The translations under genes were made by a program, and so were the position numbers. The notes beneath the pieces are model-generated. The model searched no databases. It had not been told where the DNA came from and worked only from the letters and a program-made list of their open reading frames with translations. A stretch of DNA of 64,000 nucleotides from Sciscionella marina DSM 45152. GTDB taxonomy: Bacteria > Actinomycetota > Actinomycetes > Mycobacteriales > Pseudonocardiaceae. Positions 7,352 through 64,000 of the stretch are shown here, in pieces (the first letter of the stretch is position 1; each line of letters begins with the position of its first letter). Location of the stretch: contig NZ_KB905436.1 of the NCBI RefSeq assembly GCF_000379465.1, positions 86,508 through 150,507 of the forward strand, written 5' to 3'.

Positions 7352-7363
7352 CCACCGCACAGT

Positions 7364-7382
7364 ATATGAAACTATTTCACAT
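7364..7382. promoter_or_regulatory. imperfect palindrome in divergent promoter region (candidate operator)
   Basis: ATATGAAA-CTA-TTTCACAT; 7 of 8 positions pair and the inner TGAAA/TTTCA is perfect. It is one of very few AT-rich stretches here and occupies the 60-base gap between the flavoenzyme start (7351) and the deaminase/aldolase start (7412), so one bound protein could control both. The binder is not known. Confidence 0.45.
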
Positions 7383-7411
7383 TTCTAGCCCCATTTGCGT
7401 ACGGTGATCCT

Positions 7412-8602
7412 ATGACCCCTCACGACTTGGACCTGGCGACCGCGCAGCTCGATCCGCCCTTCGCCGCCGTGGACCTCGCGGCCTTCGAGGCCAATGCCGC
7501 CGATCTGGTCCGCCGCGCGAACGGAAAACCGTTGCGCCTGGTCAGCAAGTCCGTGCGGTGCCGGGCACTGCTCGAACGGGTGCTCGCCGGAACCGGTTTC
7601 CACGGGCTCATGTGCTACTCGCTGCGCGAGGCACTCTGGCACGCCGAGCTCGGCACGAGCCAGGACATCGTGGTCGCCTATCCGAGCGTGGACCGCGGGG
7701 CGCTGCGCGAACTCGCCGCGCGGGAACCCGCCCGCGGCTCGATCACCATCATGATCGATTCGCCCGCGCATCTCGACCTGATCGACACCGCGCTCGGCCG
7801 GGATCATCCGCGCATCCGGGTCTGCCTGGAACTGGACGCCTCCTGGCGCCCGCTGCCCGCACTGTCCGCGCTGCACGTGGGTACCCGCCGCTCACCGGTC
7901 TTCCGCCCGCGCCAGGCCGCCGATCTGGCCGAGAACGTGTTGTCCCGCAAGGGGTTCAGTCTCGTCGGGCTGATGGCCTACGAGGGACAGATCGCCGGAC
8001 TGCAGGACCGGATCGGCGCCCGGTTCCGCGATGGGCTGATCACCTGGATGCAGCGCCGTTCGGCCGCCGAACTCGCCGAGCGCCGCGCCGAGGCGGTACG
8101 CGCGGTGCGTGCACTCACCGAGCTCGAGTTCGTCAACGGCGGCGGCAGCGGCAGCGTGGAGAGCACCGCGGCCGAGCCCGCGGTCACCGAGATCGCCGCG
8201 GGATCGGCACTGCTCGGGCCCGCGCTGTTCGACGGGTATTCCCGGTTCCGGCCACGGCACGCCGCCCTGTTCGCGCTGCCCGTAGTGCGCCGCCCGAACC
8301 GGCGGATCGCCACTCTGTTCGCGGGTGGCTACCACGCCTCCGGGGCCGCGGGCGCGTCCCGGCTTCCACTCCCCGCGCTGCCCGAGGGCCTTTCGCTGAC
8401 CCCGATCGAGGGAGCAGGCGAGGTGCAGACCCCGGTGACCGGGGCGGCCGCGCGCGGGTTGCGGCTCGGCGACCGGGTCTGGCTGCGCCACGCCAAGGCG
8501 GGCGAGCTCGCCGAACGGTTCACCGAATACCAGCTGATCCGCGGGGACCGGGTGGTGCAGGTGGTGCCGACCTATCGCGGCGAGGGCAAGGCCTTCGGTT
8601 AG
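7412..8602 (+). CDS. amino acid deaminase/aldolase, fold type III PLP protein (alanine racemase-like N-domain)
   Basis: A 396-residue protein with an alanine-racemase-like barrel: strand FAAVDLAAFEANA, then LRLVSKSVRC, where K46 is the expected PLP Schiff-base lysine, followed by FHGLMCYSLREA, IVVAYPSVDR, VCLELDASWRP and FVNGGGSGS. A C-terminal beta domain (about 270-396) ends with YQLIRGDRVVQVVPTYRGEG. It belongs to the group annotated as amino acid deaminase/aldolase, related to D-threonine aldolase and D-serine dehydratase; the true substrate is unproven. ATG start with no strong Shine-Dalgarno. Divergent from the flavoenzyme gene. Confidence 0.85.
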   Translation: MTPHDLDLATAQLDPPFAAVDLAAFEANAADLVRRANGKPLRLVSKSVRCRALLERVLAGTGFHGLMCYSLREALWHAELGTSQDIVVAYPSVDRGALRELAAREPARGSITIMIDSPAHLDLIDTALGRDHPRIRVCLELDASWRPLPALSALHVGTRRSPVFRPRQAADLAENVLSRKGFSLVGLMAYEGQIAGLQDRIGARFRDGLITWMQRRSAAELAERRAEAVRAVRALTELEFVNGGGSGSVESTAAEPAVTEIAAGSALLGPALFDGYSRFRPRHAALFALPVVRRPNRRIATLFAGGYHASGAAGASRLPLPALPEGLSLTPIEGAGEVQTPVTGAAARGLRLGDRVWLRHAKAGELAERFTEYQLIRGDRVVQVVPTYRGEGKAFG

Positions 8603-8615
8603 CTGATCAGCTAAC
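8598..8615. terminator. perfect 18-bp palindrome covering both stop codons of convergent genes
   Basis: GTTAGCTGATCAGCTAAC is a perfect 9+9 palindrome. Its left arm carries the TAG of the plus-strand PLP gene (8600-8602) and its right arm the TAG of the minus-strand TetR gene (8611-8613). Flanking TTCGG (8594-8598) and CCGAA (8618-8622) can extend the structure with a small bulge. There is no T-run, so a bidirectional terminator role is an inference. Confidence 0.5.
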
Positions 8616-9237
8616 TGCCGAATTTGCCCGCGAGATAACCTTTGACCAGCGTCTTGGTCTCCGCGACGATGCGCTCCTCACCGGCTGGGTCCCTGCGGAA
8701 AGCCAGTTTCAGCAGGGCATCGGCGGCCTCGTTGACCACGGTGAGCGTCAGCCGCAGTTCCTCGATCGGGACATCCACGTGTTCGGCGATGCGTTCGGTG
8801 AGCGCGTCCACGAGCACGGCGTTGTTGTCCCGGTTCTCGTCGAGCAGCTGCAGGTCGACCACGTCCCCGAAGTGCACCCGGGCGAATCCGGGGACCTCCC
8901 GGTGCATGTGCAGATACACGTCGAGCACCGAGCCGACGACATCCCACCAGTGGGTGTGATCGACCGCGTCCAGCGCCTCGGCGGCCCGGGTCACGAACCA
9001 GTCCATATTGCGTTTGGTCAGCGCCTGCACCACGGCACGCTTGTCCGGGAAGAACTGGTACAGCGAACCGACCGCGACCCCGGCCCGTTTGGCGATGGCG
9101 GTGGTGCTCAGCTGCTCGTAGCCGACCTCGCCGAGCAGATCGGCGCAGGCGTCGAGCATCCGGCCGACGCGTTCGGTGCTGCGCTGCTGGACGGGGCTGC
9201 GCCGCAGTGGACCCGCGTGCACGGTTCCGCCCTCCAC
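8611..9237 (-). CDS. TetR/AcrR family transcriptional regulator
   Basis: A 208-residue repressor. Residues about 18-63 form the TetR HTH: RMLDACADLLGEVGYEQLST, AIAKRAGVAVGSLYQFFPDK. The rest is an all-helical ligand domain with no recognisable effector signature. GTG start at 9235-9237 with AAGGTG seven bases upstream. It is convergent with the PLP gene, sharing a palindrome over both stops, and faces away from the GatB/YqeY gene 32 bases upstream in the same direction. Target unknown. Confidence 0.9.
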   Translation of the reverse strand: MEGGTVHAGPLRRSPVQQRSTERVGRMLDACADLLGEVGYEQLSTTAIAKRAGVAVGSLYQFFPDKRAVVQALTKRNMDWFVTRAAEALDAVDHTHWWDVVGSVLDVYLHMHREVPGFARVHFGDVVDLQLLDENRDNNAVLVDALTERIAEHVDVPIEELRLTLTVVNEAADALLKLAFRRDPAGEERIVAETKTLVKGYLAGKFGS

Positions 9238-9269
9238 AAGAGCACCTTTCTGTTCGACCGGCCCCGATC

Positions 9270-9635
9270 CTACCGCGTCCGGCCGGATGTGGGCTCGTCC
9301 AGGAGCCGCTGCAGCACCGCTGCCTCGGCGCGCAGCCGCCCGGCGTGTTCCTGCTGCGTGGCCTCGGTCAGGCCGGCCGCGGTGGCGAGCCGTTCCTCGG
9401 CCTCGGCGCGCACGATCTCGGTGATCCGGTCCTCGTCGAGTTCCCGCCGGGCCACCTCGGTCGCGCCGACCCCGACCGGTGCCTGTTCGAGCGCCATTCC
9501 CCGGGTCTCGGCGACCGGCACCGCTTCGGCGTTGTCCAGCGCGCCGAGCGTGGCGCGCAGGACGCTGACCGCGACCCGGTCACGAGCACGCATCGCCTCG
9601 GGAAGGGCCTGCCGCATTCGCTCACGTAGGGACAT
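9270..9635 (-). CDS. GatB/YqeY domain-containing protein
   Basis: A 121-residue small helical protein: SLRERMRQALPEAMRARDRV followed by LRATLGALDNAEA and a C-terminal helical bundle RRELDEDRITEIVRAEAEER. This matches the YqeY family, whose fold is related to the tRNA-binding tail of GatB; a role in translation or stress is suggested for the family but not established. The ATG at 9635 gives the standard YqeY N-terminus; an upstream start at 9677 would add 14 residues overlapping the amidohydrolase gene. It follows the amidohydrolase with 38 bases between. Confidence 0.85.
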   Translation of the reverse strand: MSLRERMRQALPEAMRARDRVAVSVLRATLGALDNAEAVPVAETRGMALEQAPVGVGATEVARRELDEDRITEIVRAEAEERLATAAGLTEATQQEHAGRLRAEAAVLQRLLDEPTSGRTR

Positions 9636-9673
9636 GGCGGCGATCCTAAGGACCGCGCGGCGAACCGGGCAAT

Positions 9674-11353
9674 TCAAATACCACGGCCGATTCGGTAATG
9701 CAGCGCACCGTTTTCGTAGACCGGTTCGCCGCCGATCACGGTCGCCCCGATCCCGATCCCGGAGAGCCGATCGGGCGCTACGGTGAACGGATCCGCGTCC
9801 AGCACCACGAAATCGGCGAGCTTTCCCCGTTCCAGGCTGCCCTTGTCCCGTTCGGTGTGCTCGGCATAGGCGGATCCGAGGGTGTAGGCCCGCAGCGCCT
9901 GCGCCACCTCGATCGCCTCGTCCGCGCCGAAGGCCACCCCGCTGTCCGTGCGCCGGTTGACCATGTCGTGGATGCCGAGCAGCGGCGCCGCGGCGACCAC
10001 GGGACTGTCCGAGCTACCCGGGAGCACACTGCCCGCGTCGAGGAAGGACCGCAGCCGGTAGGCACTCCCGGCCCGCCGCACGCCGAGCGCTTCGAGCATT
10101 CCGTCGCCGAGTTCCCCGATGAACCGGCCCTGCGGAACCGGGATCACACCGAGTTCGGCGATCCGGGCCACCTGCTCCGGCGAGGTCAGCCCGCAGTGCT
10201 CGATGCGATGGCGCGCGTCCGGCCGGGCCACGGTGCGCTGCGCCTCGGCATAGGCATCGAGCACCTCCTGCACGGCGGCATCCCCGATCGCGTGGGTGGC
10301 GATCTGCCAGCCGAAGCGGTGCGCGCGCAGGATCAGCTCGCGCAGCTCGATCGCGGGCTGCTGCAGAAATCCGCTGTTGCCCGGTTCTCCTTGGTAGTGC
10401 TCGCACATCGCAGCGGTGCGCCTGATCAGCGAACCGTCGGAGAACACCTTGACCGGCCCGATCCGCACCCGGTCGTCACCGAATCCACTGCGCAGCCCCA
10501 GATCCAGGCCGAACCACGGTTCCGCCGCAGCACCGCCCGGTTCGAAGGCACCCGCCTCGTGCAGTGCCGCGGCGATCGGCATCAGCGTGGCGCGCTGGCG
10601 CAGTTTACCGCTCCTGCTCGCCTCGGTGAACGCGGCGAGATCGGCCGCCCCGTTCCCGGCGAGCCCGCCGCTGCCGATTCCCGGTTCGGCGAAGCTGGTG
10701 ATCCCCTCGGCGGCGGCGACCTCGCTGCCGATCCGGATCGCCTCGACGAAGTCCGCGAAGGCGTACGGACGCAGCAGCGCGTGCACGAGCTCCTGGGCAC
10801 GCTCGGCGAGCAATCCGTCCGGGATCCCTTGCGCGTCGCGGGAAACCGAGCCACCGTCCACATCGGGCACCGTGCCGGGATCCGGGAACCCCATGCGCGC
10901 GAAGGCCGTGGAGTTCGCCACTCCCATGTGCCCCGAACAGTGCCCGAGCCACACCGGGTGGCCACCGGCGACCGCGTCGAGCCGGGACCGATCCGGATGC
11001 GCCCCGGTCTTGTTCTGGTCGTAGCCCGACCCGAGGATCCATTGCCCCGCAGGGGTTTGCGCGGCACGGGCGGCGACCGCGGCGTAGATGTCGTCCACTG
11101 TGGACACCGCGACGGGGCGCAGGTCGAGCTGGCGCAGCCGCTGCCCGCGCATGCTCAGGTGCTGGTGCGCGTCGTTGAACCCGGGCACGACCGGCGCGCC
11201 CGCCAGATCGATCACCCGTTCGGCACGAACCCCGTCCAGTTCCTCGTCCAGCCCGGCGATCCGCCCGTGCAGCACGCCGATCCGGTTCGCCTGCGGGCGC
11301 GCCGGGTCGAGGGTGTGGAACCGTCCGTTGCCGAAGATGGTGTCGATCAGCAC
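9674..11353 (-). CDS. amidohydrolase family 3 (YtcJ-like)
   Basis: A 559-residue metal-dependent hydrolase. Near residue 60, PGFNDAHQHLSMRG carries the HxH metal motif; later GSGYDQNKTG, RIGPVKVFSDGSL, W-IATHAIGDAAV (metal His), HRIEHCGL and SSDSPVV (metal Asp) follow the YtcJ order, and the end has YAEHTERDKGSLERGKLADFVVLD. Substrate unknown; relatives hydrolyse N-acyl or formamide-type compounds. GTG start. The DinB gene ends 10 bases upstream, suggesting one transcript. A second, only distantly similar YtcJ-like gene is present at 41832. Confidence 0.9.
   Translation of the reverse strand: MLIDTIFGNGRFHTLDPARPQANRIGVLHGRIAGLDEELDGVRAERVIDLAGAPVVPGFNDAHQHLSMRGQRLRQLDLRPVAVSTVDDIYAAVAARAAQTPAGQWILGSGYDQNKTGAHPDRSRLDAVAGGHPVWLGHCSGHMGVANSTAFARMGFPDPGTVPDVDGGSVSRDAQGIPDGLLAERAQELVHALLRPYAFADFVEAIRIGSEVAAAEGITSFAEPGIGSGGLAGNGAADLAAFTEASRSGKLRQRATLMPIAAALHEAGAFEPGGAAAEPWFGLDLGLRSGFGDDRVRIGPVKVFSDGSLIRRTAAMCEHYQGEPGNSGFLQQPAIELRELILRAHRFGWQIATHAIGDAAVQEVLDAYAEAQRTVARPDARHRIEHCGLTSPEQVARIAELGVIPVPQGRFIGELGDGMLEALGVRRAGSAYRLRSFLDAGSVLPGSSDSPVVAAAPLLGIHDMVNRRTDSGVAFGADEAIEVAQALRAYTLGSAYAEHTERDKGSLERGKLADFVVLDADPFTVAPDRLSGIGIGATVIGGEPVYENGALHYRIGRGI
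11093..11105. repeat. 13-base palindrome GTCCACTGTGGAC, copy 2
   Basis: Exact copy of the GTCCAC-W-GTGGAC palindrome, within the amidohydrolase gene. Confidence 0.7.
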
Positions 11354-11363
11354 CTAGCTCACC

Positions 11364-11882
11364 TCAGAACCCCGTATGGCCGTCGATGCGTTCGCGGATC
11401 AGGTCGGCGTGCCCGTCGTGGCGCGCGTACTCCGCGATCATGTGCGTGTAGATCCAGCGCAGCGTGACGGCACCGCCCAGGGCCGCGCACGGGATCCGCG
11501 CGTCCCGCTCGGCGCCCGCGCAGTTGCGTTCGGCCACGGCGATCTCCTCGGTCCAGATCCGCCGCGCCTGCTCGAAGGTGCTGTCCTCGGTGAACGCGAA
11601 ACCGCCGTCGCGCCCCTCCGGATCGGCCCGCTCGTCGTAGATCGGCGGGGCGTCCTCGCCGGTGAGTACCCGGCGGAACCAGTTGCGCTCCACCTCGGCG
11701 AGATGGCGCACCAGCCCGAGCAGGCTCAGCGCGGAGGGCTCGACGGCGGCGGTGCGCAGCTGCGCCTCGCTCAGGCCGGCGCATTTCTCGGCAAGGGTTA
11801 CCCGGTAGAAGGTCAGCCAGCCCGCGAGGGTGGCGCGCTCGTCCCCGACCGGTGGTGGCATCGTCCGCGTATCCGTGGTCAT
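11364..11882 (-). CDS. DinB/DUF664 family protein (thiol transferase fold)
   Basis: A 172-residue four-helix-bundle protein. The metal-binding histidines of the DinB fold are visible: H in LLGLVRHLAEVERNWF, then H in LRWIYTHMIAEYARHDGHAD. Actinobacterial members of this DUF664 group are often mycothiol-dependent S-transferases for detoxification, but a specific activity cannot be assigned. ATG start 30 bases after the preceding esterase-like gene; the amidohydrolase gene follows at 10 bases. Confidence 0.87.
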   Translation of the reverse strand: MTTDTRTMPPPVGDERATLAGWLTFYRVTLAEKCAGLSEAQLRTAAVEPSALSLLGLVRHLAEVERNWFRRVLTGEDAPPIYDERADPEGRDGGFAFTEDSTFEQARRIWTEEIAVAERNCAGAERDARIPCAALGGAVTLRWIYTHMIAEYARHDGHADLIRERIDGHTGF

Positions 11883-11912
11883 GTCCGCGATCCTTCCACC
11901 CGCCTCGGACAG

Positions 11913-13055
11913 TCAGCGCACCGCGAGCGCGATGAACTGGGTGACCTGAGTATCGGAAAAGTTGTTGTCGCTGACCAGGATCAGGCTGCGTTCCCCACCC
12001 GGCAGCTTCGGCCCCCAGGTCATCCCCTCCACGTTGTCCACTGTGGACAACGGGAGGTCGGAGAGGTCGGCGAGCAGGTGTTTGCGCACCGGGACGAGGT
12101 GCCGGGCCGCGCCCAGCGACGGCTCGTGCCACACGTTCGTGGCCCCGGCCGTATCGATGGCGAAGATCCGGATCTTGTTGCCCACCCCGGTGACGAAGGA
12201 GCGTTCCATCACCAGGAACCGGGTCGGGTCGGCCGGATCCACCGCGAGCACCGAGGAGATCCCGGTGGTGGTGAAGCCGGAGGAGGGTTCGGGCGCGGCG
12301 AACACCTTCTCCTCCGGGTAGGCGAACTGCGCGAGCACGGGACCGGTGCGCGATTGCAAGGTCAGCCTGGTCAGCGCACCGTGCTCGGTGTTCGCCTCCG
12401 GGCCGTCCTGCAGCTCGGGTGCCTCGACCGAGGTGAGGATGAGCGAGCCGAACCCGGCATAGCCGATCCCCTCGATGCCGAGGTTCTGCCGTGGCCCGCG
12501 ATCCGGGCGCATCCGCTCGTTGTCCGGGATGGGCAGGTCCCGCAGGTGGTTCCCGGAGCGGTCGGCGAGGCGCAGCGAGGGGTCGATGCGAGTGTCGGCG
12601 GTGCGCTCACCCTCCTGGGACCACACGTAGTTCCCGGTCCACGGATCGACGCGCAGTTCCTCGGGGTCGATGGTCTGCTCGTTCTGCGGCAGGCCGGGAT
12701 CGTTGTCCTTCAGCGCGGGATAGGTCTTCCCGTCCGGGCGGCGCAGCGGCTCGGTCCCGGTGAACTCGACCGGGCCGATCCCGCGCTCGGTCACCGGGAA
12801 CCGCGCCGTGTAGAACCGGGCGGGCTGCTTCTCCGAGCGGTCATCGCAGATCATCGCGTACCCGCCGGTGCGCGGGTCGTGGTCGATGCTGGAGAGCCCG
12901 CCGACCGTGGTTCCCCGGTAGCTCAGCCCGTTCGGCACGATCCGTTCCCCGAGCAGGCGCACTCCCGGCGCCGCGTCCGCGGCCGGAGCGGCCAGGAGTG
13001 TGCAGAACAGTCCGCCGAGCAGCGGGAGCGCGAACGCGCGCCGGACCATACCCAT
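11913..13055 (-). CDS. secreted esterase-like phytase-domain protein
   Basis: A 380-residue protein with a signal peptide (residues 1-28, ending APAADA) and a six-bladed beta-propeller-like region matching the family called esterase-like activity of phytase: GGLSSIDHDPRTGGYAMICDD, IDPEELRVDPWTGNYVWSQEG, LGIEGIGYAGFGSLIL, and VEGMTWGPKLPGGERSLILVSDNN. Members are exported and their natural substrate is usually unknown. ATG at 13055, with a second in-frame ATG two codons later. First gene of a possible four-gene run ending with the YqeY gene. Confidence 0.85.
   Translation of the reverse strand: MGMVRRAFALPLLGGLFCTLLAAPAADAAPGVRLLGERIVPNGLSYRGTTVGGLSSIDHDPRTGGYAMICDDRSEKQPARFYTARFPVTERGIGPVEFTGTEPLRRPDGKTYPALKDNDPGLPQNEQTIDPEELRVDPWTGNYVWSQEGERTADTRIDPSLRLADRSGNHLRDLPIPDNERMRPDRGPRQNLGIEGIGYAGFGSLILTSVEAPELQDGPEANTEHGALTRLTLQSRTGPVLAQFAYPEEKVFAAPEPSSGFTTTGISSVLAVDPADPTRFLVMERSFVTGVGNKIRIFAIDTAGATNVWHEPSLGAARHLVPVRKHLLADLSDLPLSTVDNVEGMTWGPKLPGGERSLILVSDNNFSDTQVTQFIALAVR
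12034..12050. repeat. palindrome GTCCACTGTGGAC, copy 3, extended to 17-19 bases
   Basis: TTGTCCACTGTGGACAA, palindromic over at least 17 bases (19 when the flanking G and C are counted), contains the 13-mer at 12036-12048 within the phytase-like gene. It is the longest of the four copies. Confidence 0.7.
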
Positions 13056-58652: not shown

Positions 58653-59449
58653 CGAGGGAGCTCCCAGTGACGCGTGAGATCGAGGGATCGGTGTCCTCCG
58701 GCGACATTCAAGCGGTGAGCAGGGTCGGCCAGATCCTCGGCCTGTTCTCCGTCGAGAACCCCACCACCACGGTCGCCGAGGCCGCCGAACAGCTCGGCCT
58801 CAACCGCAGTACCACGCACCGCTACTTCACCTCCCTGGTCACCGCCGGACTGCTCGAACGCACAACGGAACCCTCGAGTTTCGAACCGGGCGGCCTGCTG
58901 CTCCAGCTCGGCGCGGCGGCGCTGGCCAGGCGGCGGGTGCTGGACATCGCGCCGCCGTTCCTGCGCAAGCTCTGCCAGTCCACCCACCTGACCACGGTGA
59001 TCAGCCTGTGGGGCTCGTCCGGGCCGGTGGTGTCCCGCACCGAGGAGGACAACACCCGATCGGTGCTGGTGACCGTGCGGGTGGGAACCCAACTGGGCCT
59101 GCGCTCGGCACAGGCGAAGATCTTCCTCACCCACCTGCCCGATCAGCTCCGGGTCGAGCGCCTGCTCGGCACGCTCTCCAGCGCCGAACGCGAGGAACTG
59201 GACACGGATCTGGAAGAGGTCCGGCGCACCGGCGTCGCGAGCGATCACCTCGCGGACTCCGGGATCACCGCACTGGCCACCGGCGTGTTCGACGAGTACG
59301 GCGTCTGCGCCACGATCGCCCTGGTCGGTACCGTGCGCACGCTTCCGCTGGACGAGGCCACGGCCATCCGGGAGGAGCTGATCCGCACGGCGGGCCAGAT
59401 CACCGAACGGATGGGCGGCACCGATCCGGTACCCGCTAGGACGGGGTGA
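58649..59449 (+). CDS. IclR family transcriptional regulator
   Basis: A 266-residue regulator. N-terminal wHTH (about 20-80): AVSRVGQILGLFSVENPTTT, AEAAEQLGLNRSTTHRYFTS, LVTAGLLER. The C-terminal GAF-like ligand domain (about 100-260) has LTTVISLWGSSGPVVSRTEE, GLRSAQAKIFLTHLP and a GITALATGVFDEYGVCATIAL strand pair. It is co-transcribed with the MFS gene and probably controls both it and the divergent operon. Convergent overlap of 14 bases with the ArsR-type gene. Confidence 0.92.
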   Translation: MTRELPVTREIEGSVSSGDIQAVSRVGQILGLFSVENPTTTVAEAAEQLGLNRSTTHRYFTSLVTAGLLERTTEPSSFEPGGLLLQLGAAALARRRVLDIAPPFLRKLCQSTHLTTVISLWGSSGPVVSRTEEDNTRSVLVTVRVGTQLGLRSAQAKIFLTHLPDQLRVERLLGTLSSAEREELDTDLEEVRRTGVASDHLADSGITALATGVFDEYGVCATIALVGTVRTLPLDEATAIREELIRTAGQITERMGGTDPVPARTG

Positions 59450-60449
59450 CCTGCTGATCCCGCGGCGCCCCGTGGTGCCGGGGGCGCAGCAGCCCGCTGC
59501 CGAGCGGGGTCACCGTGTGCCGCACCGCGGTACCCGTGCGCTGGGTGCTCAGCAGCCCGGCCGCACGGAGAATGCCCGCGTGATAACTGGCCGAAGCCGG
59601 GGAAACCGCGCACTGCCTGGCGAGTTCGGTCGTGGTGCAGCCGGGCCCGACGGCCATGAGCACCCTGGCACGGGTGGCGCCGAGCAGCGGGGTCAGCGCG
59701 GCGAGCCCGTCCTCGGAACCGGCCGCGGGCGCGCTCATCCGGGTCTGGGTGCGCACGATGGGGTACACGAGCACCGGGCTCAGCGTGTGATCGGCGAGGG
59801 TCGTCGGGCTGCCGTGACAGAAGAACGAGGGCACCAACCGCAATCCCCGGCCGTTGAGGTGCAGATCGCCGGACACGTGCGAACCGCGCAGTTCGAGGAC
59901 CGGAGCCCGCCAGGTCAGCGCGGAGTGCAGGGTGCGCAGCATTCCGCTGGTGCCGTCCCTGGCCATGTCCCGCACGGTGATCTCGCGGTCCTGGCGGATC
60001 TCGGCCTCGATCTGCGCCCAGTACGGCTCCAGCGCGGTGCGATAGTACCCGGCCAGGATGCGGATGAGCTCGGCGAGCGCGGCCCGGCAGCTGCTGGCCA
60101 GGAGTTCGGCCCACGCGGGCAAGGGGCGCTGCCTCGCGAGCAACCGCAGATCGGCCCGCACCCGCGATGGCGGGGTGCACAGTACGGCTTCCAGTCCCGC
60201 GGAGAGCCCCTTGCTGTCGTGCTCCGGGGTGAGGAAATCCGCCGAATACCCCTTCGGCGGTGCGAGGGCGAACAACCGCCGCACTTCCGGCACCCGCGGT
60301 ACCTGGGAGCGCCAGTGCCGGAACAGGGCCTCCTCACCGGTGCCCTGCAGTACGTGCAGGCTGAGCAACAGCTCCCACATCGGATCGGGCGCGGAAGCGA
60401 TGGTGAGCCGGGCCAGATCGTCGGTAGTGAAGTGAATGCGCAGCGTCAT
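59436..60449 (-). CDS. ArsR-type regulator with DUF5937 N-domain
   Basis: A 337-residue protein with a DUF5937 N-terminal domain of about 240 residues (MTLRIHFTTDDLARLTIASA, ALAELIRILAGYYRTALEPYW) and a C-terminal winged helix: LGATRARVLMAVGPGCTTTE, LARQCAVSPASASYHAGILR, AAGLLSTQRTGTAVRHT. This architecture is common in actinomycetes and usually lies next to secondary-metabolite or exporter genes. ATG at 60449, divergent from the lanthipeptide precursor gene across 229 bases, so it may regulate that cluster. Confidence 0.85.
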   Translation of the reverse strand: MTLRIHFTTDDLARLTIASAPDPMWELLLSLHVLQGTGEEALFRHWRSQVPRVPEVRRLFALAPPKGYSADFLTPEHDSKGLSAGLEAVLCTPPSRVRADLRLLARQRPLPAWAELLASSCRAALAELIRILAGYYRTALEPYWAQIEAEIRQDREITVRDMARDGTSGMLRTLHSALTWRAPVLELRGSHVSGDLHLNGRGLRLVPSFFCHGSPTTLADHTLSPVLVYPIVRTQTRMSAPAAGSEDGLAALTPLLGATRARVLMAVGPGCTTTELARQCAVSPASASYHAGILRAAGLLSTQRTGTAVRHTVTPLGSGLLRPRHHGAPRDQQVTPS

Positions 60450-60603: not shown

Positions 60604-60678
60604 TGGCAGCGACGCTCCGGATGCCGACCATCGGTGCTCGTTCGATTCATTTCCCGGATTCAGCGTAAGGAGTTTTCC

Positions 60679-60843
60679 ATGACCGCTGCTCTCGAAACCC
60701 CGTCGGCACCTCGGCTGGACACCGAGCTCGATCATTTCGATCTCGATGCCCGCATCGTGCTCAATCCGGACGAGCTCCGCCCGGTCAACCTGAGCACGGA
60801 CACGCATCTGACCCAGTGCACGAGCTGCCCGACGATCTGTTGA
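60679..60843 (+). CDS. lanthipeptide precursor (class I, FxLD type)
   Basis: A 54-residue precursor. The leader holds FDLD at 20-23, the F-x-L-D box recognised by class I dehydratases, within an acidic context. The C-terminal part, VNLSTDTHLTQCTSCPTIC, has three Cys (47, 50, 54), the last residue of the protein being Cys, and seven Ser/Thr from position 39 on. These are the dehydration and ring partners. Cleavage is likely after ELRP (residues 32-35) but is not proven. AAGGAG (60667-60672) is six bases before the ATG at 60679; an upstream in-frame start at 60634 has no support. It is followed directly by lanB. Confidence 0.88.
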   Translation: MTAALETPSAPRLDTELDHFDLDARIVLNPDELRPVNLSTDTHLTQCTSCPTIC

Positions 60844-60866
60844 CGATCGGCTGACTCTGCTATCCG

Positions 60867-60910
60867 CGGTCATTTCTCCCGCCGTGTCCGCACGGTGGGA
60901 GAAATGACCG
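60867..60910 (+). terminator. 20-bp stem hairpin between the lanthipeptide precursor and lanB
   Basis: Arms 60867-60886 and 60891-60910 pair over 20 bp with one G-U wobble and a 4-base loop TCCG. It begins 24 bases after the precursor stop and ends 26 bases before the LanB ATG. No U-tract follows, so it is probably a partial terminator or an mRNA stabiliser/processing site that yields more precursor than enzyme. Confidence 0.7.
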
Positions 60911-60935
60911 GCCGCCTCGATCGGGATTGGTGGAG

Positions 60936-63900
60936 ATGTCCCTTTTTTCGGCCGGGAACACGATGTATCTGCGGGCCTCCGCGCTCCCGCGGGACCGAGC
61001 GGCCGGGCTCGTGCGCGTCCCCGATCCGGCCGAGGGGGACGAACCCGCCGCACTGACCGCGATCCTGCGCGAGAACACGGCCGATCCGGTGGTGCGGGAA
61101 GCACTCGAGGTGTCCAGCGATTCGCTCGCCGCGGTGCTGCGCCGGGTGGACGACGGCGAGCCGGTGGGGATCGGGCAACTCCGCCGCGCCACCTTCGCTG
61201 CCTGCCGCTATCTGCTGCGGATGACCGGAAGACCGACCCCGTTCGGGCTGCTGGCCGGGGTCGCGATCGGGCACTTCGCCGAACACGCCCGGGTCACCGG
61301 CACACCGGAGCACGGCAAACGGGTGCGCCCGGATGGTGAATGGCTCGGCACTCTGCTCGGTGACCTGGAAACCCGTCCCGAGGTGCTTCGTCACTTGCGG
61401 GTGTGCGTGAACGATCTCTGCTACGAGCGCGGCGGCCGGTTCGTACTCCCGTACACACCGATGGACAAGACGGCCGATTCCCGGACGAGCGAGAAATCGG
61501 TGCGCGCGACTCCCCCGGTACGGATCGCCATGGCCGCCGCACGGGAACCGATCATGGCGGGCGAGCTCACCGAACGCATCCGGGCCGCCTATCCGAACAC
61601 CGGCACCGCGCGCATCGCAGCGTTGCTGGCCGAGCTGGTCGCGCACGGGCTGCTGTGCACCGAACTGCCACCGCCACCCTATGAGACCGACCCGCTGACC
61701 CACGCGGTCACCGTGCTCGACCGGACACCGGCACCGGAAGCGGCGGGACTGCGCACCCTGGGGAAGCTGTTCGCGGAGTTCGCCGAGGCCCCGCCCGGTG
61801 CTGGGCGTGCGGCCTGCGCGGCGGCCCGGACCGCGGCACGGGAACTGCGCCCGGAAAGCACCGCCCCGCCGATGCAGGTGGATCTGCGCCTGGCCACCGA
61901 AATCGCGCTCCCGCACGGAATCGCGCGCGAGGCGGAGGCCGCGGCAACCGCGTTGCTCCGGATCTCACCGGCGGACGGGGTCCCCGGATATCTGGCCGAG
62001 TACCACGCGCATTTCCTGGACAGGTACGGAATCGGGGCGATCGTTCCGGTGACCGAAGTGCTCGATCCGGAACGCGGAATCGGCCCACCCGCGGGATATG
62101 TGCTCCCCGCGGAAAGCCGCCGGCGCCCGCCCGTTCCGGAGCCGGACACCGCGCGCGAGGAGCGGATCGGTGAGCTGGTTTTCCAGGCACTGCGCGGAGA
62201 CGACCGGATCCTGCTGGACGCGGACACGATCACCGCGCTCGAACCGGACGGTCCGCCCGCCCCACTCCCGGCGACCGTCGAACTGGCCTTCGGCCTGCAT
62301 GCCGAATCCACCGCGGCGCTCGACCGCGGCGATTTCCTGCTGCTGTTCGCCCCGGCCATGGGGCAGCACGCCGGGGCGATGCTCGGCCGGTTCGCCTACC
62401 TGTTCGAGGACGGAGCAGAACAGCTCGCCACGGTGCTGGCGGCCGAGTCCCGGGATTCGGCGACCGTGCAGCTCGCCTTCCAGCCCGCGGGTGGCCGGCT
62501 ATCGAACGTGACCAGGGTGCCCGCCGTGCTGGACCGGACCCTGACCATCGGCGGGTTCGCCGAGCGTGCCGCGGAATCCGTGCTCGGCCTGGACGAGATC
62601 GGAATCGTCGCCGAACCGGATGGGCTGCGCGTGGTGTCCCTGCGCGATCGGCGCCGGCTCACCGCGCTCACCCCGCACATGCTCGATCCGCGCAAGCGCG
62701 CCCCGAACGCGGCGCGGCTGCTCGGCGATATCAGCGCGGCAGCCACTCGCACCCTGCGGGCCTGGGACTGGGGTGCGCTGCAGTGCCTGCCACACCTGCC
62801 CCGCGTGCAGCACGGGCGCACGGTGCTGGCGCCCGCGAGCTGGCGCCCACCCGCGCGGCTCGTCGACGCGGTCCGGGAATCCGCGGACTGGGGACGCGAA
62901 CTGGACCGCTGGCGCGAACGGGCGGGCGTTCCGGAACATGTGCACGCCAAGCTCGCCGATCACAGCCTGCCGCTGGACCTGCGGGCTCCGCTGCATCGCC
63001 GGTTGTTCGCCGATGAACTGCGCCGCAAACCGGATCTCGTGGTCAGCGAGCCGATCGGGGACGGCGACTCCCCGTTCGGCTGGCTCGGCGGACACGCCAA
63101 CGAAATCGTGATCCCGCTCGCGGCGAACACTCCGGAACCGGTCACCCACGGTGGGCCGTGGACCCCGGCCAGTCCGCGTTCGGTCCGGGCACCCGGCGGA
63201 GACTGGCTCTATGCCAAGGTCTACAGCGGGCGGGCCAAGCACAACGAAATCCTCGCCGAACACCTCCCCCGGTTACTGGACTCCGTTCCGTCCACAGTGG
63301 ACCGTTGGTTTTTCGTCCGGTACACCGATCCGGAGGATCACTTGCGTATCCGCATGCACGGCGAGCCCGCATCCCTGAACCAGGATCTGTTGCCCGCACT
63401 GCATTCCTGGATGGCCGAGCTCCGTGCCGCCGGGCTGGCCCGGGTACTGGTGCTGGACACCTACGAACCGGAGATCGACCGCTACGGCGGCCCCGGAACG
63501 CTGGACGTGGCCGAGCACGTCTTCTGCGCGGACAGCAGAGCGGTGCTGGGGCTGCTTCGGTTGCCGGACGCCGAGGCCTGTCCGGACATCGTGCTCGGCG
63601 CCGTCGGTTTCGCCGATCTGCTGCGCTGCCTGGACTCGCGATGGGTGCACTGGTACGACGAGATCCCGATCGAGCACTACGACGGGATGTCCGCGCATGT
63701 GCGGCAGGCGGTGCAGCTGACCGAGGCCGTGCTGAACCGGGACGCGGGCGAGCCGGGTACGAGGATGGGGCAGGCTTTGGCGGGGCGCCGCCCGGTGTTC
63801 GCGCGGTACGGGGAACGCCTGCGCGCCGCGGAGCAGGACGAGCCACATTTCCGGGCCACGGTCAACAGCCTGCTGCACATGCACCACAATCGGCTGCTCG

Positions 63901-63992
63901 GCGGCGATCGGCAGACGGAGAACCGGGTGCACGCGGTGGCGAGCCGGATCGCCGCGCACTATCGGGGCCGGGCCGCGGCGGCGCGCTCGTGA
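60936..63992 (+). CDS. full-length LanB-type lantibiotic dehydratase
   Basis: A 1018-residue protein. N-terminal dehydratase domain (about 1-660): MYLRASALPRDRAAG, RRATFAACRYLLRMTGRPTPFG (tRNA-Glu-dependent glutamylation core), YLAEYHAHFLDRYG and GRFAYLFEDGAEQLATVLA. C-terminal SpaB_C/thiopeptide-type elimination domain from about 750: GGDWLYAKVYSGRAKHNEIL, RWFFVRYTDPEDHLRIRMHG, DTYEPEIDRYGGPGTLD. It glutamylates and eliminates Ser/Thr of the precursor. ATG at 60936; GTG and TTG codons just upstream are alternatives. The stop at 63990-63992 overlaps a GTG that begins the next gene. Confidence 0.93.
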   Translation: MSLFSAGNTMYLRASALPRDRAAGLVRVPDPAEGDEPAALTAILRENTADPVVREALEVSSDSLAAVLRRVDDGEPVGIGQLRRATFAACRYLLRMTGRPTPFGLLAGVAIGHFAEHARVTGTPEHGKRVRPDGEWLGTLLGDLETRPEVLRHLRVCVNDLCYERGGRFVLPYTPMDKTADSRTSEKSVRATPPVRIAMAAAREPIMAGELTERIRAAYPNTGTARIAALLAELVAHGLLCTELPPPPYETDPLTHAVTVLDRTPAPEAAGLRTLGKLFAEFAEAPPGAGRAACAAARTAARELRPESTAPPMQVDLRLATEIALPHGIAREAEAAATALLRISPADGVPGYLAEYHAHFLDRYGIGAIVPVTEVLDPERGIGPPAGYVLPAESRRRPPVPEPDTAREERIGELVFQALRGDDRILLDADTITALEPDGPPAPLPATVELAFGLHAESTAALDRGDFLLLFAPAMGQHAGAMLGRFAYLFEDGAEQLATVLAAESRDSATVQLAFQPAGGRLSNVTRVPAVLDRTLTIGGFAERAAESVLGLDEIGIVAEPDGLRVVSLRDRRRLTALTPHMLDPRKRAPNAARLLGDISAAATRTLRAWDWGALQCLPHLPRVQHGRTVLAPASWRPPARLVDAVRESADWGRELDRWRERAGVPEHVHAKLADHSLPLDLRAPLHRRLFADELRRKPDLVVSEPIGDGDSPFGWLGGHANEIVIPLAANTPEPVTHGGPWTPASPRSVRAPGGDWLYAKVYSGRAKHNEILAEHLPRLLDSVPSTVDRWFFVRYTDPEDHLRIRMHGEPASLNQDLLPALHSWMAELRAAGLARVLVLDTYEPEIDRYGGPGTLDVAEHVFCADSRAVLGLLRLPDAEACPDIVLGAVGFADLLRCLDSRWVHWYDEIPIEHYDGMSAHVRQAVQLTEAVLNRDAGEPGTRMGQALAGRRPVFARYGERLRAAEQDEPHFRATVNSLLHMHHNRLLGGDRQTENRVHAVASRIAAHYRGRAAAARS
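63290..63302. repeat. 13-base palindrome GTCCACAGTGGAC, copy 4
   Basis: Exact copy of GTCCAC-W-GTGGAC inside lanB. Confidence 0.7.
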
Positions 63993-64000
63993 CCGGGAGC
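63989..64000 (+). CDS. start of the next lanthipeptide-cluster gene, cut by window edge
   Basis: GTG at 63989-63991 overlaps the LanB stop (GTGA), followed by codons for Thr-Gly-Ser to the end. This tight overlap suggests translation continues into a co-transcribed gene, by family precedent a LanC cyclase or a methyltransferase, but only four codons are visible and no identity can be claimed. Confidence 0.35.

Follow-up and report, generated by a model that had tools for sequence, protein, structure and literature searches.

A 64,000-nucleotide stretch of the genome of Sciscionella marina DSM 45152 (G000:C57:86508-150507, hereafter the window; the genome comprises 8.54 Mb in 86 contigs) carries at its right-hand end what, judged from its genes, is a minimal and intact class I lanthipeptide operon of ordinary biosynthetic logic and with enzymes of well-known kinds. 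We assign this overall reading a probability of roughly 0.82. Open reading frame and family searches placed a precursor gene (lanA), a dehydratase gene (lanB) and a cyclase gene (lanC) on one strand of a contig that runs on beyond the window edge at the lanB end, and the operon is called minimal for its class because an intact lanC directly follows lanB. Positions past the edge refer to the 19-kb stretch L006 (C57:144000-163000), in which a position equals the window position minus 57492. The same three genes occur in the same order in Sciscionella sediminilitoris SE31 (G001, record NZ_JALM01000011.1), the sole genus-mate among the genomes compared, and in G203, a genome from another family, that is, in all three genomes found with the core, so that the locus is not a chance arrangement. 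The initial annotation of the window had proposed a class I lanthipeptide locus with a 54-residue precursor carrying an FDLD leader box, a full-length fused LanB after it and a LanC further downstream. All of this was borne out: by the lanA reading frame (Table 1), by matches of LanB to both the Lant_dehydr_N and Lant_dehydr_C domains, and by lanC directly past the window edge.

Table 1. Features of the operon and its upstream flank (window positions unless stated otherwise)
Feature	Position	Strand	Description
ArsR/HTH_20-type regulator	59436..60449	-	337 aa; divergent from lanA; HTH_20 31.9 bits (cut-off 27)
lanA ribosome-binding site	60667..60672	+	AAGGAG, six bases before ATG; read from sequence
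lanA	60679..60843	+	54-aa precursor MTAALETPSAPRLDTELDHFDLDARIVLNPDELRPVNLSTDTHLTQCTSCPTIC; FDLD box residues 20-23; conserved core residues 38-54 LSTDTHLTQCTSCPTIC
Hairpin between lanA and lanB	60867..60910	+	44 bases; 20-bp perfect stem, 4-base loop
lanB	60936..63992	+	full-length class I dehydratase, 1018 aa; alternative upstream starts 60927/60930
lanC	63989..64000 in window, on to L006:7741 (G000:C57:151740)	+	GTG start, 414 aa

The LanA peptide joins an FxLD-type leader box to a Ser/Thr/Cys core and its gene adjoins lanB, which places it among class I precursors. Its sole NCBIfam match is NF038155, "FDLD family class I lanthipeptide" (E 0.0025), at 18.5 bits and hence under the cut-off of 20; the S. 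sediminilitoris LanA likewise stays below it (17.3 bits), and a Pfam search of LanA gave no match. The core border at residue 38 was drawn by conservation after the alignment had been viewed and may differ from the real cleavage site. Within this core, Ser39, Thr40, Thr42, Thr45, Thr48 and Thr52 are candidate dehydration donors conserved in the three genomes, and the three cysteines (47, 50 and 54) are all conserved as well; Ser49 is no conserved ring donor, because G203 has Asn at this position. All three Thr-X-Cys triplets (TQC, T[S/N]C and T[I/L]C) are retained in G203, and they could form an unusual ring pattern, the alternative being rings across T42-C47, T45-C50 and T48-C54. The earlier impression that the core is not a recognisable one was supported in the family searches. 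Among the papers listed in searches on Sciscionella, lanthipeptides, lantibiotics or ribosomally synthesised and post-translationally modified peptides (RiPPs), none was seen to report the peptide; supplementary precursor lists (e.g., Additional File 2 of PMC7268733) may contain the precursor, and PMC9864124 mentions Sciscionella once, for ketosynthases. By its sequence, we regard the core as a new family of a known lanthipeptide kind.

The two enzymes appear complete. LanB matches Lant_dehydr_N with 593 bits and Lant_dehydr_C with 182 bits (Pfam) as well as TIGR03891 with 195 bits (NCBIfam), and its structural matches are MibB (5ehk, 420 bits, the best in the PDB), MadB (9g04, 247 bits) and NisB (112 bits). 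Its start is probably the ATG at 60936 rather than the TTG at 60927, because the G203 LanB begins at the aligned position. Nine MadB residues are listed as essential in PMC12241602, and all nine are present in LanB: R95, R99, T101, D133, D316 and R485 for glutamylation and R806 and R849 for elimination, as mapped via the MadB alignment, and H981, as read from the alignment. The stand-alone LanC (gene at L006:6497-7741, overlapping the lanB stop by 4 bases) scores 139 bits for LANC_like (Pfam) and resembles MadC (8byk) and NisC; it retains FDLVSGL, NLGMAHG, RESWCYG and CHG as zinc-ligand and acid/base motifs, and PMC9889658 describes the corresponding residues (Asp, His, Arg, Cys and Cys-His) in NisC and MadC. 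Between the two Sciscionella species, the ratio of nonsynonymous to synonymous substitution rates (dN/dS) of the three lan genes is 0.23-0.38 and thus below 1, the value of lanC (0.38) being the highest among the 9 genes compared. LanB homologues also serve in PEARL-type pathways, which use carrier peptides, such that LanA might be a mere carrier for the making of a small molecule. However, the elimination domain of LanB is complete and retains its catalytic residues, LanB is accompanied by a LanC, what is conserved in LanA is its Cys/Thr-rich core, and no redox or other tailoring gene was recognised directly beside the operon; we find a carrier function barely credible.

In a lanthipeptide operon of this kind, LanB would bind the FDLD box of the leader, glutamylate Ser and Thr residues of the core with glutamyl-tRNA and eliminate the glutamate to give dehydroalanine and dehydrobutyrine, and LanC would then add cysteines 47, 50 and 54 to form up to three (methyl)lanthionine rings, because this is what the characterised homologues do. 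The hairpin between lanA and lanB would let lanA transcripts exceed those of lanBC, and release and export of the peptide would be left to host functions outside the operon. No methylation of Asp would be expected. The untagged full-length precursor has a calculated neutral monoisotopic mass of 5948.87, from which each dehydration would take 18.011; for a peptide cleaved before N37, the calculated [M+H]+ runs from 1883.81 with 3 dehydrations to 1811.77 with 7. Furthermore, allo-methyllanthionine of the type found in SapT is not predicted, because the lyase residues of LanB are canonical and no gene for a divergent lyase, such as PMC9011353 describes for SapT, was recognised in the locus. The same paper reports that SptBa could not use the glutamyl-tRNA of E. 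coli.

The initial annotation had also suggested reading past base 64000 for further cluster genes. A simple home-made gene caller, which may miss a small or odd gene, found 15 genes in L006, of which 14 were put to Pfam, the fifteenth being a 55-residue fragment truncated where the stretch ends. This confirmed lanC, whereas a PCMT-type methyltransferase, a leader protease of the subtilisin type or other dedicated kind and an ABC (ATP-binding cassette) exporter were not among the genes called. This gap in export and protease genes, together with the comparatively high dN/dS of lanC, might be taken to mean that the operon is a silent remnant. Yet the three frames are intact in three genomes, the ratios for the lan genes are below 1 and the core is without an amino-acid change between the two Sciscionella species, such that decay of the operon is very unlikely.

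The initial annotation had also called the locus FxLD-type and expected an isoaspartate-type methyltransferase in the cluster, giving an uncommon modified lanthipeptide. The term is right for the leader box and wrong for the methyltransferase-linked FxLD family: the locus is not of the METHYLTRANSFERASE branch, the window precursor having no match to TIGR04363 at E up to 1, and without such a match or a methyltransferase among the 15 genes the expected modification is not supported. Both kinds of locus occur in this one genome, the precursors on contigs C16 and C79 matching TIGR04363 at 46-47 bits, so that an FxLD box in the leader does not by itself predict membership in the Asp-methylating branch. 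The window LanB is 31-33% identical to the LanBs of the C16 and C79 loci, and in a LanB tree these two FxLD LanBs split from the other 15 entries with a support of 100/100. A genome-wide search for TIGR04364 found four genes over the cut-off of 320, on C16, C79 (two) and C25; none lies on C57, where the sole weak match (31.6 bits) is located some 41 kb before lanA.

These four genes raise the question whether Asp41 of the core could be modified in trans by an FxLD methyltransferase from elsewhere in the genome, giving an aspartimide or isoaspartate as in the OlvA group. The three precursors all have Asp41, followed in the window core by Thr, a residue that PMC13001092 includes among those after the conserved Asp. 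However, the same review gives TXDGC as the core motif of the lanthimiditides and describes RiPP methyltransferases as highly specific; TXDGC is absent from the window core, which reads STDTHLTQC, and the precursor does not match TIGR04363. We therefore consider modification in trans quite improbable.

The FxLD loci themselves deserve brief description. The locus on C16 (G000:C16:11760-12971; L007:7070-7249, 7354-10389, 10449-11660, 11702-12670) holds a TIGR04363 precursor, a methyltransferase, a LanB and a LanC, and also a separate protein with only the Lant_dehydr_C (lyase) domain. In the locus on C79 (G000:C79:267072-273918; L008), two TIGR04364 methyltransferases flank the precursor, LanB and LanC. 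The methyltransferase on C25 (G000:C25:51592-52788) lies on a contig without a LanB_N match and could be an orphan or stem from a LanB-free, pamtide-like system. A partial TIGR04364 match on C5 (G000:C5:148262-148756; 255.7 bits against the cut-off of 320, profile positions 3-167) falls in a 232-residue frame that is perhaps a truncated methyltransferase.

The core of the three-gene operon is strongly conserved. Its protein sequence is identical between the two Sciscionella species, in which lanA shows three replacements (residues 7, 11 and 13) and three synonymous changes (residues 37, 50 and 54), while LanB is identical at 916 of 1019 and LanC at 357 of 414 positions. In G203 the three genes are colinear on one strand; the core reads LSTDTHLTQCTNCPTLC and is followed by YADD, giving the joint pattern LSTDTHLTQCT[S/N]CPT[I/L]C. 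Compared with G203, 15 of 17 core residues are identical, as opposed to 16/37 in the leader, 574/995 in LanB and 237/412 in LanC (about 57% for the two enzymes). Fisher tests gave p values of 0.003 for core versus leader and 0.012 for core versus LanB, which are guides only, as the border was set post hoc. At synonymous sites, identical codons number 11/15 in the core versus 272/557 in LanB (p 0.07), and we do not claim constraint at this level. Such retention of the core in G203, where LanB and LanC differ at more than 40% of their positions, means that the target or role of the peptide is probably conserved too.

The LanB tree groups the window, S. sediminilitoris and G203 with a support of 95/96. 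Three sister LanBs (C54 and C7 of the window genome, and C23 of S. sediminilitoris) are 50-54% identical to the window LanB; their fork has a support of 91/94 (not starred in the tree), and the fork joining all six has 100/100 (starred). Their precursor candidates are encoded divergently from lanB, with cores that end in TCNSECGLTRPGFPGC and SSCPEC[S/N]NPSWKC[T/S]PPFR[R/G]. Because sister LanBs at a similar divergence thus pair with different cores, the product appears to have been kept in one LanB branch and changed in the other. The C54 locus (L009, G000:C54:1-9184), whose LanB and LanC are 54% identical, fills a 9-kb contig with a precursor candidate divergent from lanB, and genes near both its ends resemble transposases by eye. 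Matching precursor candidates of the SSCPEC type occur in both Sciscionella species (L010:6265-6456, minus strand, and L030, upstream of lanB), making this a candidate for a second uncharacterised core.

Several observations weigh against our reading of the operon and its core. The LanA score falls just under the NF038155 cut-off. Only three genomes enter the comparison of cores, and two of them belong to one genus. Of the 17-residue windows, 44 of 979 in LanB and 20 of 396 in LanC equal the core in conservation, which is therefore in the best-kept 5% of stretches and not beyond: its conservation is high but not unique. Moreover, the L006 genes include none recognised as a dedicated protease, an ABC exporter or an immunity gene, which makes secretion of the peptide uncertain.

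These same features bear on what the product does. The product might be no antibiotic and instead act as a signal or, like a morphogen, in development; this would be compatible with the operon as we read it, but we hold it to be somewhat doubtful. It would fit with a core conserved above the leader and, on average, the enzymes, with the lack of a recognised immunity or ABC export gene among the L006 genes, the immunity gene having been looked for near the operon by inspection only, and with a core that, read from its sequence, has neither of the lipid II motifs quoted in PMC7268733, SxxxCTP(G/S)C and TxTxEC. Core diversification is reported to be very limited in the class III subfamilies, SapB belonging to one of them (PMC11251773), and SapT is a class I morphogen whose cluster is without a protease too, according to PMC9011353. 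On the other hand, the core is polar while descriptions of SapT/SapB-related cores speak of conserved hydrophobic residues, SapT uses split LanB proteins in place of the one fused LanB seen here, and no developmental gene is linked to the operon. A wider proposal would have the STDTHLTQCTxCPTxC peptide act on a constant target as a conserved signal or developmental factor, with its three-gene operon leaving release and export to the host and the hairpin setting the stoichiometry of lanA to lanBC; as a whole this is unlikely.

In both lineages a strong hairpin lies between lanA and lanB. The stretch 60844-60935 folds with -50.9 kcal/mol (z -5.25; none of 200 shuffles was equally stable), and the only strong second match of the hairpin stretch in the genome is its own reverse complement. 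In S. sediminilitoris the stem is preserved through a paired change from T-A to C-G, and G203 has an unrelated hairpin in the same position (main stem 16 bp, z -4.80). The hairpin is likely a partial terminator or a stabiliser of the mRNA 3' end that would raise lanA over lanBC. No precedent for a terminator between lanA and lanB appeared among the papers listed in the literature searches.

With profile and LanB searches and partial scoring of candidates, the core was found in three genomes only. An order-wide search of 200 genomes at E 1e-180 gave LanB relatives in the window genome itself, in G203 (57%) and in G359 (41%), and a family-wide LanB search at E 1e-150 gave relatives in 10 of 200 genomes, none above 43% identity outside the genus. 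A LanB scan of genome contigs, which used exact short patterns and is no census, returned S. sediminilitoris (90%), a Lentzea (39%) and a Promicromonospora (33%). At E 1e-30, LanB_N as such is present in 96 of the 200 genomes of the family that were searched. The window genome has five LanB_N, all 7 candidates having been scored; G017, G023 and G179 also have five, a loose comparison given that at most five candidates were scored per genome and that some matches are pieces of one gene.

A profile built from the three known precursors (A1) was further used in class-wide and Pseudonocardiaceae scans, in which misses are possible because, for most genomes listed, 17 of some 20-45 first-look candidates were scored. 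Among 394 class genomes it gave three hits at E up to 0.01; one is the window itself, and the weak matches in G590 (E 0.001) and G675 (E 0.007) were rejected as relatives, tblastn with the window LanB and LanC finding nothing in those stretches. Of four hits among 390 Pseudonocardiaceae (E up to 0.001), two are true, both from Sciscionella, and two are weak (G792 and G080); the latter lie inside long reading frames whose products look like LysR-type proteins. Three genomes of the family of G203 yielded one hit, G203 itself. Plasmids gave no lanA match; LanB relatives occur in 32 plasmid records, the 15 listed being at most 36% identical, and of 25 viral-contig stretches that fitted the pattern none is a relative. 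Four LanB/LanC loci of other genomes (L031, L032, L038 and L060; LanB 39-41% identical) differ from the window locus in having an ABC-type protein nearby (by Pfam ABC_tran in L031, L038 and L060, by clustering in L032) and, in L031, L032 and L060, a second LanC-like gene.

Around the operon, the ArsR-type regulator has a sub-threshold DUF5937 match (26.3 bits, cut-off 27.1) and, at the corresponding position in S. sediminilitoris, an orthologue of 97% identity. The regulator or its orthologue is present in 3 of 22 loci of at least 8 kb (L006, L018 and L029, the last two being the same place in S. sediminilitoris), and no relative was found in the G203 stretch L059. Control of the cluster by this regulator is possible. 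In a different lan locus, a 37% identical relative (L060:2054-3049, minus strand) is found some 5 kb away from LanB, which is a hint that regulators of this kind go with lan genes. Upstream, on the regulator side, are an IclR regulator, a major facilitator superfamily (MFS) transporter, a DUF6282 protein and an HpcH/HpaI aldolase, between which lies a protein without a match; these genes look like a catabolic cluster. After lanC comes a 144-residue protein (L006:7864-8298) with a likely signal sequence (by eye), identical at 136 of 144 positions in S. sediminilitoris, for which there was no Pfam or NCBIfam match and no relative in the other loci compared. It is followed by a divergent ScfR/RamB-type regulator with the Peptidase_M78 domain usual for such regulators, and further downstream by isocitrate lyase, malate synthase, a second MFS gene 5.5 kb after lanC, an acyl-CoA-ligase-like protein, an enoyl-CoA hydratase and a sodium:solute symporter.

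Because the locus is compact and intact, has a core that is both defined and conserved and encodes just two enzymes for modification, it should be readily reconstituted; that the core has changed less than most of these enzymes points to a fixed target, one worth finding.

Among known systems, the NF038155 FDLD family shares with the window precursor, which scores under its cut-off, the FDLD leader box and a short Cys/Thr core. The best structural match of LanB is the microbisporicin dehydratase MibB, but the core of microbisporicin and the content of its cluster differ from those of the window locus. The FxLD LanSA/PIMT lanthipeptides (TIGR04363/TIGR04364; OlvA of Streptomyces olivaceus; the lanthimiditides) are likewise actinobacterial and class I, with an F-x-L-D leader, LanB and LanC, whereas the window locus is without the TIGR04363 match, TXDGC and the methyltransferase. 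The maddinglicin system MadA/MadB/MadC (PDB 9g04, 8byk) and NisB/NisC have the same domains and catalytic residues as the window enzymes, and the MadA leader has an FDLD box like that of LanA; both systems are from Firmicutes, however, and the window core lacks a nisin-type lipid II motif. SapT (spt cluster) resembles the window operon in being class I, from an actinomycete and without a cluster protease, but differs in its split LanB, divergent glutamyl lyase and hydrophobic core, compared with one fused LanB, canonical residues and a polar core here. For SapT, the authors of PMC9011353 propose that the leader is removed by a protease outside the cluster.

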